Source: a virus. From it: DNA of 39,575 nt. The DNA is taken from the IMG/VR virus record IMGVR_UViG_3300046656_000146, positions 1 to 39,575 of that record; one strand, given 5' to 3'. Shown piece after piece: positions 841 through 29,283 of the stretch. The notes below the pieces were generated by a model. The model made no database searches and was not told where the DNA came from. It saw only the letters and a program-made list of their open reading frames with translations. The position numbers were made by a program, and so were the translations under genes. The number at the start of each line of letters is the position of its first letter. Position 1 is the stretch's first letter.

Positions 841-876
841 AACCCCGTATAGCTTTTTAGACTATACGGGGTTTTT
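841..876 (+). terminator. Strong intrinsic terminator of the rightward operon
   Basis: A perfect 12-bp stem (841-852 with 862-873), a 9-base loop, and a T tract beginning within the stem end (872-876). On the minus strand the same stem is followed only by AATCTTTT, so it may weakly stop the opposing late transcript as well. Confidence 0.92.
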
Positions 877-958: not shown

Positions 959-1044
959 TGGTCGTGAAAGCCTGAGTCGAACAGGTAGCTCATTGGCGGT
1001 TGTTTTACAGACAACTGACGCATCCAGCGCGTCCATCATTCACG
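959..1044 (-). tRNA. tRNA-Tyr (anticodon GTA), class II
   Basis: Read on the minus strand, 86 nt with encoded CCA. The acceptor stem is CGTGAAT / TTTCACG, with the seventh pair a T-T mismatch; discriminator A and CCA end at 959. The D arm is GACGC / GCGTC around a loop with the conserved GG. The anticodon arm is GTTGT-CTGTAAA-ACAAC, giving GTA. A 12-nt variable region fits bacterial tRNA-Tyr. The T arm is CCTG-TTCGACT-CAGG with a canonical T loop. Two extra bases precede the D stem. It lies at the distal end of the late transcript. Confidence 0.75.
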
Positions 1045-1049
1045 ATAAT

Positions 1050-1073
1050 CTGTTGTTTGATCAAGTGCAACAG
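1050..1073. other. Hairpin between the two tRNA elements
   Basis: CTGTTG (1050-1055) pairs with CAACAG (1068-1073) around a 12-base loop. It sits between the two tRNA-like elements and could be a processing signal in the shared precursor. Only the pairing is seen. Confidence 0.4.
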
Positions 1074-1106
1074 CACACCCAAAAGGTTCTAAAGATGATC
1101 AGTCTC

Positions 1107-1193
1107 TGGTGGAGCATCCGCTGTTTGAGAGCGGGCTGCCTCGAAACTGATTTTCACCAATCCCGAGGCGTGACTTCTGTATCAGAATGCCCC
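1107..1193 (-). tRNA. tRNA-like element, class II size, anticodon not resolved
   Basis: Read on the minus strand, 87 nt. The acceptor GGGGCAT pairs with ATGCTCC (one G-T wobble), followed by discriminator A and encoded CCA. The T arm is CCGCT-CTCAAAC-AGCGG, whose loop differs from consensus only at the first base. The middle does not fold into a normal D arm and 7-base anticodon loop: it contains a 6-bp GCCTCG / CGAGGC stem around about 20 bases with an inner GATT / AATC. It could be a degenerate tRNA, an unusual serine- or leucine-type tRNA, or a tRNA mimic. Confidence 0.5.
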
Positions 1194-1254
1194 AAAGGGT
1201 GAGGCCCCAATGGAACCTCTAAGCAGTCAATTAAATACCACCTAACTATATGCC

Positions 1255-1821
1255 TCACAATGGAGAGAATAGGCCGCTGTTCTTCTGCTGGCAAGTATTC
1301 TCCAGCAAATTATCTGGCACCGACTGTTTGCGTAAATCTTGATACATGAACTGAGTAAATCTTCGTTCGCTCATGTGCTGGGAGAATTTAAGAATTTGTT
1401 TGGCATGGTCATTGACTGGATACACACTAAACTCCCAACGATTGCTATTCTCTTGAGCTGGGAAGTATTTGACCACAAAGAAAGGTAGTCCTGCCAGATT
1501 GGCCACTTCGCCATTGGGAGTAGAGGTATCTAAAATAGTAGAAATAACCATATCAGGCGTTCTGAAATGTTTCATTTCTAAGATGGCGTAGGGAATACAC
1601 TTTCCAGCAATCTTCATATACTCAATGTTTCTCATAGCATTAAAACTCTCTAAATGGCCGTTGCTAATGACTGCATCTATATCGGTCATTGGCAAGCCTA
1701 AGTTCATGCGCCAATTTTGATAATGGCTGTATTGAATTTGAAAATATGCTTCGGATTCATTGAGATAGCCACGATAGAATAACTCACCAGGCAATTGTTC
1801 GGGCGAATACTTCATGGCCAT
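1255..1821 (-). CDS. Putative PD-(D/E)XK nuclease-like protein
   Basis: A 188-residue protein (186 if the second ATG, at 1815, is used). D47-I-D49 in a hydrophobic stretch and E82-M-K84 in the strand YAILEMKH form the pattern of a PD-(D/E)XK active site, D...ExK. An aromatic, charged N-terminal segment precedes it. This is motif reading, not a family match. It is the last protein gene of the late operon, directly after the holin-like genes, where an endolysin is often found; nothing in it looks like a lysozyme, amidase or peptidase. It could degrade DNA or resolve junctions, or be an unrelated protein. Confidence 0.5.
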   Translation of the reverse strand: MAMKYSPEQLPGELFYRGYLNESEAYFQIQYSHYQNWRMNLGLPMTDIDAVISNGHLESFNAMRNIEYMKIAGKCIPYAILEMKHFRTPDMVISTILDTSTPNGEVANLAGLPFFVVKYFPAQENSNRWEFSVYPVNDHAKQILKFSQHMSERRFTQFMYQDLRKQSVPDNLLENTCQQKNSGLFSPL

Positions 1822-2771: not shown

Positions 2772-3503
2772 TTAGTCGCTCCAAACAATGATACAGTAGC
2801 CGGAACCTCCGACACCACCAATACCAGCCGTGCCCGAAGCAGAACCAGAACCTCCACCAGCCCCCGCACCAGTATTAGCTGAAGCAGTTCCGCCGGGATT
2901 GCTTGTGGTAGTAGTTCCACCATTTCCCCCGGCCGCACCTGAACCTTGAGGTCCAGCTCCCCCGCCGCCTCCACCTCCACCGTGTGAGGCTCCAGCAGAA
3001 CCTCCGCCACCACCCGTATATGAACCGTTTCCATAATAATTCATATCACCAGCAATACCGGCCACAGTGTTAGCACTTCCATTCCCACCGTTGGCAACTG
3101 CTCTTGCAGTTGTGGCAGTTGCATTACTGATATTAACTCTGGTGCCAGATGCTGTTTGGAATGAAGCCCCTCCCAATGAAGATGCTCCGCCAGAACCTGC
3201 CGAAGCACCCTTGAAAGTAGCTAATGAACCAAAAGTTGTATCTGATCCATTTCCACCGGCTGTATTAACAGCACCAGATGTGCCACCAGCCCCCACTGTG
3301 ACTGTATAGGTAGTTCCCGGAACAACTGTAACATATTGTTCGCCTTGAATAGCTCCACCACCTCCAGCACCGCCAGAAGTTGTTTGTCCGCCTCCACCGC
3401 CTCCACCACCTCCGCAACCGATGACTAGAATCTGTGTTACTCCGCCTGGTGCTGTCCAGTTGGTAGATGCTGCTGTGAAATATACTTTGTTTAATTTTGA
3501 CAT
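2772..3503 (-). CDS. Glycine-rich tail adhesin paralogue C
   Basis: 243 residues. The N-terminus MSKLNKVYFTA leads into a WTAPGGVTQILVIGCGGGG segment, then a long region of Gly runs broken by Ser/Ala/Asn, and ends in GSGYCIIVWSD. It is a close paralogue of the next gene (3505-4242) and a relative of 7465-8334. The Gly-rich phage tail domain, known in fibre tips and in T-even gp38-type adhesins where it forms polyglycine II helices, is the best comparison. It probably forms the distal receptor-binding part of the tail fibre. Gene spacing is one base from its paralogue. Confidence 0.75.
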   Translation of the reverse strand: MSKLNKVYFTAASTNWTAPGGVTQILVIGCGGGGGGGGGQTTSGGAGGGGAIQGEQYVTVVPGTTYTVTVGAGGTSGAVNTAGGNGSDTTFGSLATFKGASAGSGGASSLGGASFQTASGTRVNISNATATTARAVANGGNGSANTVAGIAGDMNYYGNGSYTGGGGGSAGASHGGGGGGGGAGPQGSGAAGGNGGTTTTSNPGGTASANTGAGAGGGSGSASGTAGIGGVGGSGYCIIVWSD

Positions 3504-3504
3504 A

Positions 3505-4242
3505 TTAGTCTTTCCAAATTATGTAGCAATAACCAGAACCGCCTGTTCCACCTGTTCCACCAGTTCCAGTAGTTGATGCACCGCCGCCCCCGGCCCCAGC
3601 ACCAGTATTTGCCGATGGATTGTTTCCATTCGAAGCCGTTCCACTTCCCCCAGCCGCACCAGCGCCGCCATCAGCGCCAGCACCTTGGGGTCCAGCTCCA
3701 CCACCTCCGCCTCCACCTCTAGCAACTCCGCCTATTGATCCGCCATTGCCGCCAGCAAATCCGCCAACCTGATTCATATCACCAGCTAAACCATTAGCAG
3801 CACTACTCCCGTTTCCACCATTACCAGGTAATCTGGCAGCGGTGGTGGCATTACTCAATTGGACATTGGTTCCTGAAGCAGTTTGAAATGAGGCGCCCCC
3901 ATTAGCAACGCTGGCGGCTCCGCCCCCGGAACCACCTTTAAAAGTAGCCAAAGTCCCGAAAGTAGTGTCGGCGCCTTTAGTTCCAGTTGAATTTGGCCCC
4001 CCGCCTCCGCCCCCGGCCCCAATAGTTACAGTATATACTGTATTTGGAACAACAGTAATATAGGTAGTCGATTGAATTGCCCCACCCCCACCACCTCCAC
4101 CAATACCACCGCTACCAGCAGAGCCGCCACCTCCGCCTCCGCCACCACCTGCGCCACAACCAATCAATAGAACTTCGGTAATACCAGCCGGTGCTGTCCA
4201 AGTAGTAGTCCCAGTGATGTATGTTTTGTTAAGTTTAGACAT
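3505..4242 (-). CDS. Glycine-rich tail adhesin paralogue B
   Basis: 245 residues with the same plan as its neighbour at 2772-3503: MSKLNKTYIT start, WTAPAGITEVLLIGCG segment, many poly-Gly runs, GSGYCYIIWKD ending. The two differ mostly in the spacing of Gly runs and in the Ala/Ser/Thr content between them, as expected of adhesins that duplicated and then diverged in their receptor-binding loops. It lies three bases after the large fibre gene, so it is probably co-translated and assembled onto its tip. Confidence 0.75.
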   Translation of the reverse strand: MSKLNKTYITGTTTWTAPAGITEVLLIGCGAGGGGGGGGGSAGSGGIGGGGGGGAIQSTTYITVVPNTVYTVTIGAGGGGGGPNSTGTKGADTTFGTLATFKGGSGGGAASVANGGASFQTASGTNVQLSNATTAARLPGNGGNGSSAANGLAGDMNQVGGFAGGNGGSIGGVARGGGGGGGAGPQGAGADGGAGAAGGSGTASNGNNPSANTGAGAGGGGASTTGTGGTGGTGGSGYCYIIWKD

Positions 4243-7464: not shown

Positions 7465-8334
7465 TTACGAATACCATCTAATGGTGAATTGACCACTAGA
7501 ACCAGGCAACCCATTACTTCCAGTTCCACCACTGGAACCGCCAGAACCACCGCCTCCACCACCGCCACCGCCACTGCCCATATTATCAGCAATGCCGCCA
7601 GCTCCACTACAATTATCTCCATCTGTTATTTGGCCATCAGCTCCGTTGAAACCAGTGCCACCAGTGCCGTAAGGGCCACCAGCTCCACCGCCTCCACCGC
7701 CGCCACCTGGATAGAATGGCGAGCCTGAAGTAGCGCCATAAGTTCCACCAGAGCCCCCAGCAAAACCTTGAATAGAAGCTGCACCTTTACGAGTGACCTG
7801 CAAACCACCACCTTGAGCAGCAGTCCCTTCGCCACCGAAACCTGGACCGAAGACCAAGCTGACAATGTTACCTGATGCCCAAGAACCTGCCGTAGTTGGA
7901 GGTAATCTTTGGTCAGTTGGACTTCCACCTGGAGCTAATTTGTAAGCAGTTGAGCTGGTAGCTAAATCTCCACCCATACCACCTTGTGCGCCTTTGTATT
8001 GGCAAACAGTAGTAAGTCCTGGGAAAGTTCGCATAAGAGTGTTTCCACCGTTGGTTCCCTGATCACCAGAGCCTGTTCCACCTGCTCCACCTGTTCCACC
8101 AGCTCCAAGATTAATCCAATAGACTTGTCCTGGAATAGTAGTTACAAAGCTTCTTTGCAATAAAGCTCCGCCGCCACCGCCGCCCCCAGATGAATATTGG
8201 GTAGTTGCCGTGCCACCTTGCGCACCTCCACCACCACCTCCACCGCCACCGCAGCCTTCAGTTTCAACTCGATAGACTCCAGCCGGGCAGGTAAAATAAC
8301 CATCAGCTAAAAAGATTTTTTCATGAATACTCAT
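7465..8334 (-). CDS. Glycine-rich tail adhesin paralogue A
   Basis: 289 residues. It starts MSIHEKIFLADGYFTCPAG, runs into VETEGCGGGG and many Gly clusters, and ends with SSGQFTIRWYS. The plan is that of the two paralogues after the large fibre, but with a different head and tail, so it is an older copy or a different adhesin. It lies between the small octapeptide-repeat fibre and the large fibre. Likely a distal tail component that contacts the host. Confidence 0.72.
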   Translation of the reverse strand: MSIHEKIFLADGYFTCPAGVYRVETEGCGGGGGGGGGAQGGTATTQYSSGGGGGGGALLQRSFVTTIPGQVYWINLGAGGTGGAGGTGSGDQGTNGGNTLMRTFPGLTTVCQYKGAQGGMGGDLATSSTAYKLAPGGSPTDQRLPPTTAGSWASGNIVSLVFGPGFGGEGTAAQGGGLQVTRKGAASIQGFAGGSGGTYGATSGSPFYPGGGGGGGGAGGPYGTGGTGFNGADGQITDGDNCSGAGGIADNMGSGGGGGGGGGSGGSSGGTGSNGLPGSSGQFTIRWYS

Positions 8335-27126: not shown

Positions 27127-29283
27127 TCATTTAGTCTTTCCACCCTTAGCCTTTTCAGATTGCGATACCTGAGTAGATATATCTTTCTGAAGTGATGTCT
27201 GGTTAGCTTGCTGGGAACTGACTAATAAACCAGAACCAACCTTCTTGCCAACTTGTTTAGAGTGTAATTTGCTCCAAGGGCCTTGCAAACGACCAACTTG
27301 TCCAACATAAGCTGGAACTGGTTGTCCATTCTGTAATGCCGCCAGCGCCCTATGATGTCCATCGACAATCATCATCTTACCATCATGAGCCGGAGCATTG
27401 ACTAAGACAATTGGTTTAGTCATATTATCATTAGCCATTTTATCAGCAAACATCTCTACATGATCTGGCTCTTGAGTAGCCTGCCAATTATCCATATTGG
27501 AGAAATCAATAGAAGATAGTGGAACTTCTACTGGTCCAATCCAAGCAATATGCAATACCCACTCAATATCTTTCTCATTGTAGTCATCTGCTAAATGATC
27601 AAATACTTGTTGTGGATCAATGTGTTCGCCAGTTTGTAGATGGGCGCCTTCTGGTAATAGAGGCTGTCCTGATGGGCCAAGAGCCATTGAATCATCAGAT
27701 TCTGGTGGGTTGGTTGGAGCAGCGGAACTAGCGGCTGGCAACGCCGGTGCATTTTGCATAGGTTGTGCCGTTGGCATCTTATCAATAGCGTCCAAAATTT
27801 CACGCCTAATCTGCTTTGCTTCTTCATGTGAAGCGCCATCTAACATTCCCAAATAGAACTTCTCAGTATAAAGACGACTAAATGTCTGGCTCTTGCTATC
27901 TTGAATGACTTGTGGGAAATTCTTAGCTTCTTCGGTCAATTGAGAACGATCCATAATAGTGAAGTTCTCAAATCCATCAACTGTCCATACAATTGATTCA
28001 TTACGAGCAGTAGAGATACAGTTCATAATGCTTTTGATGAAATCCCTAACGATGTTACCATAAGCAGTTAATAGAATTTCAGTGGCATGACGAGACTCTT
28101 GTTGAGCAGCCGCAGAACGGCCTTGGCTCTTTCCACCTTTAGAAGCGGCAGCAGTATTGGACATCTGATGAACGGTTTCTTTTACCTTCTCAATCTGACG
28201 GTCAATCTGCTCATCGACAATCTTGAATGCATGTCCCTGAGATTCAATAATATCCATTTTGTCATTGGCGCCTAATACACCAAATCCCTTGGATTCCCAG
28301 TCAGTTTGTAAAGTTAAATGACGGAATGGGTTCTCTTGAACCATAGCTGGGGTTGCACCACCTGGCTTATTAGACTCATCACCAAGAAAAACTACTCTCA
28401 TTGCATTAAGTGATTTGTTTTCACCATTGAATAGAATGGAGGTTCTTTGGAAGATGTTCTCACACATTGGAGCAATCTTTGGCCCTAATGACAATCCAGT
28501 TGGCAGGCACAGTTTGAGAACTGGTATCTCTTTGAATGAAGTAATTCCCTCTTCCACCAATGAGACATCGTCATTGGGAGCTGGCATCTTGCCCATCTTC
28601 AATAGTTCAGTTTGATACAATTGCCATTTAGCCGTTCCATTCTCCATCTTCCAAATCTTGAATTCTATTTGGTGCATTGGAGGTTGTAATGGATCAGGCT
28701 GAACTACATTGTCTGATTTAATAACTACCCAATTGAATTTATCGGACTCATTGCACGACCAATTGATAACACAATCTGGATCAATATCACAGAGATATGG
28801 TCGGGCAGCTTGTAATACTTCTTCTTCTAATAGGTTAGTTGGAACCTCATCAGAACGAGGGAAATCAACTCCCACAAATGCATATCCATAAGTTAGAGCA
28901 TCAGTAGTGGTATGGCGCATTACTTCTTCTAATGAATTGCCTCTGAGATTAGCACGAGCCAAGAATAGTTTATAGACAGACTCATCATCTGCTTCATCGC
29001 CCAAAGTGCCTTCATCATCAGCATCAGCGGCTTCGGTAACTGACATTTCGCCAGAGAAGAGCATAGCTGCGTAATAGTCAATGGTATCAGACATCAATGG
29101 TAGATAGGCTGCACACTGCTTACGATCTTCGAATGAAGCTGGTGTTTCGGAAGCTAATTGATGTAGAAATAGATCAGCATTGTTCCAAACATCATAACCT
29201 CCCTTATACAACACACAAAGGCGTTGTAGTAAGCTGGGATTGAAGGCCGAGTTTTTGGAGTCAAGTGTTTTAAAAGTAACCAT
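27127..29283 (-). CDS. Portal protein fused to a ParB-like C-terminal domain
   Basis: 718 residues, longer than a usual portal of about 450-550. The first 480 or so residues have portal features (YLPLMSDTIDYYAAMLFSG, TDALTYGYAFVGVDFPRS, then ESRHATEILLTAYGNIVRDF) and follow the terminase gene. After a Pro/Ala-rich linker comes KPIVLVNAP, then VDGHHRALAALQNG at about residues 640-653, the core of the ParB/Srx-like fold, then PAYVGQVGRL. A basic Gln/Ser/Lys tail closes the protein. The ParB-like part might bind DNA or nucleotide (CTP) during packaging. It is a single open frame. Confidence 0.85.
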   Translation of the reverse strand: MVTFKTLDSKNSAFNPSLLQRLCVLYKGGYDVWNNADLFLHQLASETPASFEDRKQCAAYLPLMSDTIDYYAAMLFSGEMSVTEAADADDEGTLGDEADDESVYKLFLARANLRGNSLEEVMRHTTTDALTYGYAFVGVDFPRSDEVPTNLLEEEVLQAARPYLCDIDPDCVINWSCNESDKFNWVVIKSDNVVQPDPLQPPMHQIEFKIWKMENGTAKWQLYQTELLKMGKMPAPNDDVSLVEEGITSFKEIPVLKLCLPTGLSLGPKIAPMCENIFQRTSILFNGENKSLNAMRVVFLGDESNKPGGATPAMVQENPFRHLTLQTDWESKGFGVLGANDKMDIIESQGHAFKIVDEQIDRQIEKVKETVHQMSNTAAASKGGKSQGRSAAAQQESRHATEILLTAYGNIVRDFIKSIMNCISTARNESIVWTVDGFENFTIMDRSQLTEEAKNFPQVIQDSKSQTFSRLYTEKFYLGMLDGASHEEAKQIRREILDAIDKMPTAQPMQNAPALPAASSAAPTNPPESDDSMALGPSGQPLLPEGAHLQTGEHIDPQQVFDHLADDYNEKDIEWVLHIAWIGPVEVPLSSIDFSNMDNWQATQEPDHVEMFADKMANDNMTKPIVLVNAPAHDGKMMIVDGHHRALAALQNGQPVPAYVGQVGRLQGPWSKLHSKQVGKKVGSGLLVSSQQANQTSLQKDISTQVSQSEKAKGGKTK

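Follow-up and report, generated by a model that had tools for sequence, protein, structure and literature searches.

An RNA locus in the IMG/VR virus record IMGVR_UViG_3300046656_000146 raises the question of what a phage might do with an RNA that has the ends of a tRNA and no anticodon loop. The record (39,575 bases) was analysed over its full length, which we call the window; it carries a 127-base direct terminal repeat and is therefore probably complete. At the end of the late operon, next to a gene for tRNA-Tyr, stands a second element, hereafter the tRNA-like RNA (TLS), for which the original prediction, made from the letters alone, had left two possibilities, namely a decayed class II tRNA or a tRNA mimic kept for another purpose. 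We compared the locus with related contigs, known tRNA-like RNAs and the identity rules of aminoacylation in order to choose between these and other readings.

Setting of the locus and its relatives

The window is the genome of a contractile-tailed phage, with sheath, baseplate, portal and terminase genes on the minus strand. The plus strand carries genes of replication type as well as genes for an HNH protein and for a protein with sigma-70 region 4. The RNA locus sits where the two gene sets converge, its elements lying 3' of the last minus-strand gene and 5' of a terminator-like hairpin (Table 1). Using the 188-aa protein encoded by that last gene, we found two related IMG/VR contigs, L001 (96% identity) and L002 (56% identity). 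In both of them the TLS again follows the 188-aa gene directly, in synteny with the window, and the predicted position closing the late operon is conserved across the three contigs. The tRNA-Tyr is present in L001 and is missing from L002, where the TLS stands alone. Relatives sought via the terminase, the portal and an 82-aa neighbour protein were only the same few contigs, among which G003 and G004 are fragments ending before the TLS region.

Table 1. Positions of the RNA elements and of the adjoining late gene in the window
Feature	Positions	Strand	Basis or remark
Terminator-like hairpin, 13 bp, after the RNA elements	841-873	-	called strong
Atypical tRNA-Tyr (GTA)	959-1044	-	ARAGORN; sole tRNA gene called in the window
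Spacer hairpin CTGTTG...CAACAG between TLS and tRNA-Tyr	1050-1073	-	alignment; conserved in L001
TLS, whole element, 87 nt including encoded ACCA	1107-1193	-	fold and comparison
TLS 3' acceptor strand ATGCTCC, discriminator A73 (1110), encoded CCA (1107-1109)	1107-1117	-	
TLS T arm CCGCU CUCAAAC AGCGG	1118-1134	-	loop keeps U55, C56, R57 and Y60
TLS 14-bp hairpin with GAAA tetraloop, replacing the anticodon arm	1138-1169	-	
TLS D arm, stem UGAU/GUCA, loop ACAGAA; U8 and C9 before it at 1185-1186	1171-1184	-	invariant in the three contigs
TLS acceptor 5' half GGGGCAT, pairing with 1111-1117 (ATGCTCC), contains G3.U70	1187-1193	-	
Hairpin GAGGTTCC-ATT-GGGGCCTC just upstream of the TLS	1201-1219	-	read from the sequence and alignment
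Last protein gene of the late operon, 188 aa, upstream of the TLS	1255-1821	-	conserved in L001 (96%) and L002 (56%)

The 188-aa protein itself gave no informative family, PDB or fold match, and its structure model is weak (mean pLDDT 59.5, no significant fold match). Its sequence includes ILEMK, which could supply the ExK of a PD-(D/E)XK-like fold, a suggestion that no database or fold match backs. A functional link between this protein and the TLS was considered and dropped, given the lack of a usable family match, the weak model and the lack of a fold match.

Several other features of these phages deserve mention. A second conserved non-coding element lies at 799-830 (+/-), together with 746-800, flanked by the plus-strand HNH gene and the terminator. 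Its outer parts, GAGUCUC...GGGACACAU on the plus strand, are invariant in the window, L001 and L002, and the inner pairs, as read from the alignment, change together (GUCUCC/GGGGAC, GUCUCAG/CUGGGAC and GUCUCUGU/ACAGGGAC). The element has the look of a structured RNA or of a regulatory site in these phages. In the 718-aa portal protein (27127-29283, minus strand) the C-terminal part includes a ParB-like stretch, matched in PHROG at 587-652 and well conserved in L002, making it a portal with a fused ParB-like domain. In addition, three neighbouring tail-region genes (2772-4242 and 7465-8334, minus strand) each match the glycine-rich domain PF21722, which suggests duplicated tail-fibre-like proteins.

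Structure and conservation of the tRNA-like RNA

The original prediction of an 87-base element with a full acceptor stem, a T arm and CCA is borne out: the acceptor has 7 bp (GGGGCAU/AUGCUCC), the T arm has 5 bp and a 7-nt loop, and the encoded end is ACCA, so that acceptor, T arm and NCCA end all have the dimensions of a tRNA. The statement that normal D and anticodon arms were missing is right for the anticodon arm only. In place of a 5-bp anticodon stem with a 7-nt loop the TLS has a hairpin of 14 bp closed by a GAAA tetraloop, of which just 6 pairs had been seen as an internal 6-bp stem, whereas a D arm with a 4-bp stem is present and is the same in L002. The D loop has 6 nt and the variable region 3 nt (AGC). 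The predicted fold has an energy of -39.5 kcal/mol against a mean of -23.0 for shuffled sequences (z -4.8), and none of 200 shuffles folds as well. The minimum-energy fold in the window puts a hairpin, UCUG-AUA-CAGA, where the D arm would stand, the form with the D arm being weaker by just 0.5 kcal/mol (-39.0 vs -39.5). The D-arm form (U8 and C9, then UGAU, a loop with A14, G19 and A21, then GUCA) is identical in L002, and there it is the predicted minimum-energy fold. Since the tertiary residues U8, A14, G19, A21, U55 and C56 are kept, an L-shaped elbow is likely.

Neither the Rfam tRNA model (RF00005) nor the tmRNA model matched the TLS, the tRNA model having been run with E values up to 1 on the whole window and up to 10 both on a 421-base stretch and in a family search of the own record. 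A sequence-independent descriptor (7-bp acceptor, T arm of 5 bp and 7 nt, NCCA) recovers the TLS in the window and in the L001 and L002 contigs, with two chance matches elsewhere. The combination of acceptor, T arm and CCA arose in 13 of 20,000 dinucleotide shuffles of the window's intergenic stretch and in 9 of 20,000 shuffles of a second stretch.

Comparison of the window with L001 separates the body of the TLS from its arm. The body is identical at 54/54 nt (23 + 31 nt); identity is 74% in the leader, 76% in the spacer and 71% in the downstream sequence, and the upstream 188-aa gene shows differences at 14 of 56 fourfold sites. The arm is 72% identical, with 7 substitutions and a 2-nt gap (a deletion in L001), and in L001 it still forms a hairpin with a GAAA loop, now of 12 pairs and one mismatch. 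In L002 the arm has an 11-bp stem with a long apical part, and the length of the whole RNA in the three contigs is 85, 87 (the window) and 126 nt. The simplest reading of these sequence data is that selection acts on the sequence of the body and on the existence of the arm, and not on the sequence of the arm.

Against the more distant L002, all 16 acceptor, D and T pairs are kept and 7 have changes on both sides, which lie in acceptor and T-stem pairs (three in the T arm), although these counts amount to essentially one independent comparison, as they come from three related sequences of which the two closest are identical outside the arm. In a shuffle test of this comparison 0/500 reach the observed paired cells or covariation, and sliding the structure along the alignment gave zero two-sided changes in any position. 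Lack of covariance support in relatives had been named beforehand as grounds for refuting the second element, and the seven two-sided pair changes provide that support. Judged from this comparison of sequences, the TLS is a real element under selection and not a decayed one. The suggestion of a mimic kept for another purpose is supported by the conserved body in a diverging neighbourhood, the seven two-sided changes, the shared location behind the late genes in three contigs and the absence of an anticodon loop.

No sequence relatives of the TLS were found outside the three contigs in searches of phages, of IMG/VR and genomes by pattern, and by covariance model. In 50,697 phages blastn returned no match to the TLS and short chance matches only to the tRNA-Tyr. 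One exact match to the TLS pattern in IMG/VR (L006) was rejected as chance, since it lies within the gene for a large structural protein in a different virus. The relaxed pattern GGGSNNNTCTGATANNNNAGTCA gave ten further matches, all chance and none with an acceptor and T arm, and the TLS pattern in 84,980 bacterial and archaeal genomes gave a single match (Neptuniibacter), which is not tRNA-like. The covariance model (R1), run with stricter filters and without a positive control, had no match in 398 Pseudomonadota genomes.

The alanine-type acceptor and the neighbouring tRNA-Tyr

Pairs 4-7 of the TLS acceptor have all changed between the window and L002, and G1-C72, G2-C71, G3.U70 and A73 are unchanged. 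These are the only parts of the acceptor region that stay, they are found in 3/3 sequences, and they are exactly the alanine identity set, the rule by which AlaRS recognises its substrate (PMC9976931). As a control we took 51 tRNAs called in stretches of phages XacN1 and T5, where the full set occurs in both tRNA-Ala (2/2) and in none of the 49 others. Pair 4 is C-G in T5 tRNA-Ala, as it is in L002, and the change of pair 4 in L002 is therefore compatible with alanine. The missing anticodon is no argument against charging either, because AlaRS makes no use of the anticodon. Other positions depart from the standard: neither G20, a minor alanine element, nor a full G18G19 is found in the window or L001, and T-loop positions 54 and 58 of L002 deviate from the consensus. 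As the acceptor keeps the alanine identity set, we read the TLS as an alanine-accepting, non-decoding RNA, one that AlaRS could probably charge with alanine but that has no means of reading codons.

The neighbouring tRNA-Tyr (GTA), predicted on the minus strand with an encoded CCA, was called by ARAGORN; it is nonetheless atypical and is unmatched by the Rfam tRNA model (E up to 1 in the window, up to 10 in the 421-base stretch and in the own-record search). Features expected of a bacterial tRNA-Tyr are present, namely the anticodon G34 U35 A36, A73 and a long variable arm, along with a D loop that contains G-G and a T loop of canonical form. The D arm reads GACGC-GCUGGAU-GCGUC, the anticodon loop CUGUAAA, and the variable region has 12 nt. 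The oddities are C1-G72, a U.U mismatch at 7-66, a 4-nt linker and a D stem enlarged to 5 bp. The bacterial identity pair G1-C72 is absent and replaced by C1-G72, the tyrosine identity pair of archaea and eukaryotes (PMC9976931). Its folding does not stand out from that of shuffles (z -0.7, against -4.8 for the TLS). Between the window and L001 the gene differs only in the D stem, where two pairs are changed on both sides, and in three variable-region bases, which makes the variable loop the main unpaired part that differs. Retron-Eco7 and Septu cut the variable loop of tRNA-Tyr, and a phage tRNA-Tyr counters both (PMC13096335). The neighbour of the TLS resembles that case in being a tRNA-Tyr whose variable loop varies between the window and L001, and differs from it in its C1-G72 pair and enlarged D stem. 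A role of this gene against tRNA-targeting systems is plausible (PMC13096335; PMC11555353 is cited in the same context), possibly as a cleavage-resistant or decoy tRNA-Tyr.

Alternative explanations and possible function of the TLS

Phage tRNA-like RNAs as a kind are already known and poorly understood, the nearest precedents being RNA1 and RNA2 of phage T5 (AY543070), annotated as 'tRNA-like stable RNA with unknown functions'. As folded here, these share with the TLS tRNA-like ends, a T arm, a D-arm-like hairpin and an enlarged arm that replaces the anticodon arm, and all are phage-encoded. The T5 RNAs differ in length (144 and 125 nt), in their imperfect arms and in lying inside a large tRNA cluster, and RNA1 has an extra variable-arm-like hairpin. 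They have no sequence relation to the TLS, and the covariance model R1 found no match in the T5 stretch. The phage M3 RNA (phi80-induced RNA) is generally tRNA-like. Like the TLS it is small and phage-encoded, and it is processed by RNase P (PMC11143913). Bacterial and phage tRNA-Ala (e.g., those of T5 and XacN1) have in common with the TLS G1-C72, G2-C71, G3.U70, A73, CCA and D and T arms, and differ from it in that the TLS has no anticodon loop, a 3-nt variable region and a 6-nt D loop. What is new here is the evidence, drawn from the three contigs, that a phage RNA without an anticodon, its helix cleanly capped by a GNRA loop, is under selection for an alanine-type acceptor.

The main rival to a function in trans is a purely cis-acting role in ending the late mRNA, in which the fold only marks an RNase P site and shields the mRNA 3' end, and the freed RNA has no task. 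The TLS does lie directly after the last late gene and ahead of the terminator, and the hairpin at 1201-1219 in the window, like a different one at that site in L001 (GAAGCTA/TAGCTTC), would be left at the 3' end of the late mRNA once RNase P had cut. No such hairpin was seen at the site in L002, however, and the adjacent tRNA-Tyr would already give an RNase P site in the window and L001. The cis role accounts for the position but not for the conserved alanine set, which an RNase P site does not need, and we consider it unlikely, if still worth reckoning with. The TLS also resembles tmRNA (ssrA). The tRNA-like domain of tmRNA likewise has an alanine-type acceptor with G3.U70 and A73, a T arm, no anticodon and, in E. 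coli ssrA, with which we compared it, a helix in place of the anticodon stem; the E. coli molecule shares the GGGGC...GCTCC ACCA ends, and tmRNA is charged with alanine and binds EF-Tu (PMC3022190). A minimal or truncated tmRNA, reduced to this domain without a message, is still very improbable, because tmRNA has no paired D stem and, at about 360 nt, includes a tag message and pseudoknots, whereas the TLS has a paired D stem, no tag-coding region within its 87 nt and no Rfam tmRNA match, nor does the long arm of L002 hold a frame for an alanine-rich tag.

Decay of a class II tRNA, the other half of the original prediction, would explain the lack of a usable anticodon and the nearness of the tRNA-Tyr. 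It is hardly credible for a body that is 100% conserved amid a diverging neighbourhood, with seven two-sided pair changes, 16/16 acceptor, D and T pairs unbroken and the alanine identity set intact; moreover, since the variable region has 3 nt, the hairpin is not an extra variable arm and instead replaces the anticodon arm. We give just as little credence to a working tRNA-Ala with a spliced insertion in its anticodon loop. It would fit the alanine acceptor, the normal D and T arms and the varying length among relatives (85, 87 and 126 nt), but in the window the 14-bp helix of the arm runs without a break to its GAAA loop, with no exon-like 7-nt loop, there is no bulge-helix-bulge and no space for a self-splicing intron, and no loop holds an NGC anticodon.

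The best explanation, which we hold to be somewhat more probable than all others together, is that the TLS is an AlaRS-chargeable, non-decoding phage tRNA-like RNA, most likely a tRNA mimic acting in trans. It may have derived from tRNA-Ala or converged on it. It would be made as part of the 3' end of the late transcript, from which RNase P would release it by cutting at its 5' end, as with other phage tRNA-like RNAs; this enzyme processes the phage M3 RNA, the phage-derived C4 RNA and pre-tmRNA (PMC11143913). Host AlaRS, which needs G3.U70 and A73 but no anticodon, could then charge it, and EF-Tu could hold the charged RNA via its acceptor/T half. Because it has no anticodon the TLS could not decode, and its job would lie outside codon reading. 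Most likely it would occupy or feed a host factor that recognises the acceptor/T half, the candidates being AlaRS, EF-Tu, the tmRNA-SmpB rescue path or a tRNA-targeting defence, which a decoy lacking the anticodon would evade. The tRNA-like domain of tmRNA serves as the working analogy for such a mechanism. A bolder and distinctly less probable proposal, which we put forward tentatively, is that the TLS represents a new family of AlaRS-charged, non-decoding phage RNAs whose action in trans, as mimics, would either counter or serve a host system that binds tRNA, be it trans-translation, EF-Tu/AlaRS, immunity directed at tRNAs or the donation of alanine outside the ribosome; the tRNA-Tyr next to it, no less reshaped, would work alongside.

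tRNAs are coming to be seen as a major front in the conflict between phages and bacterial immunity. The TLS is the first lead we could find to what one of the phage tRNA-like stable RNAs, a kind that includes RNA1 and RNA2 of T5, may carry. If the proposed explanation is true, viruses would put a charged tRNA body that does not decode to use as a tool, in the way that tmRNA serves rescue.
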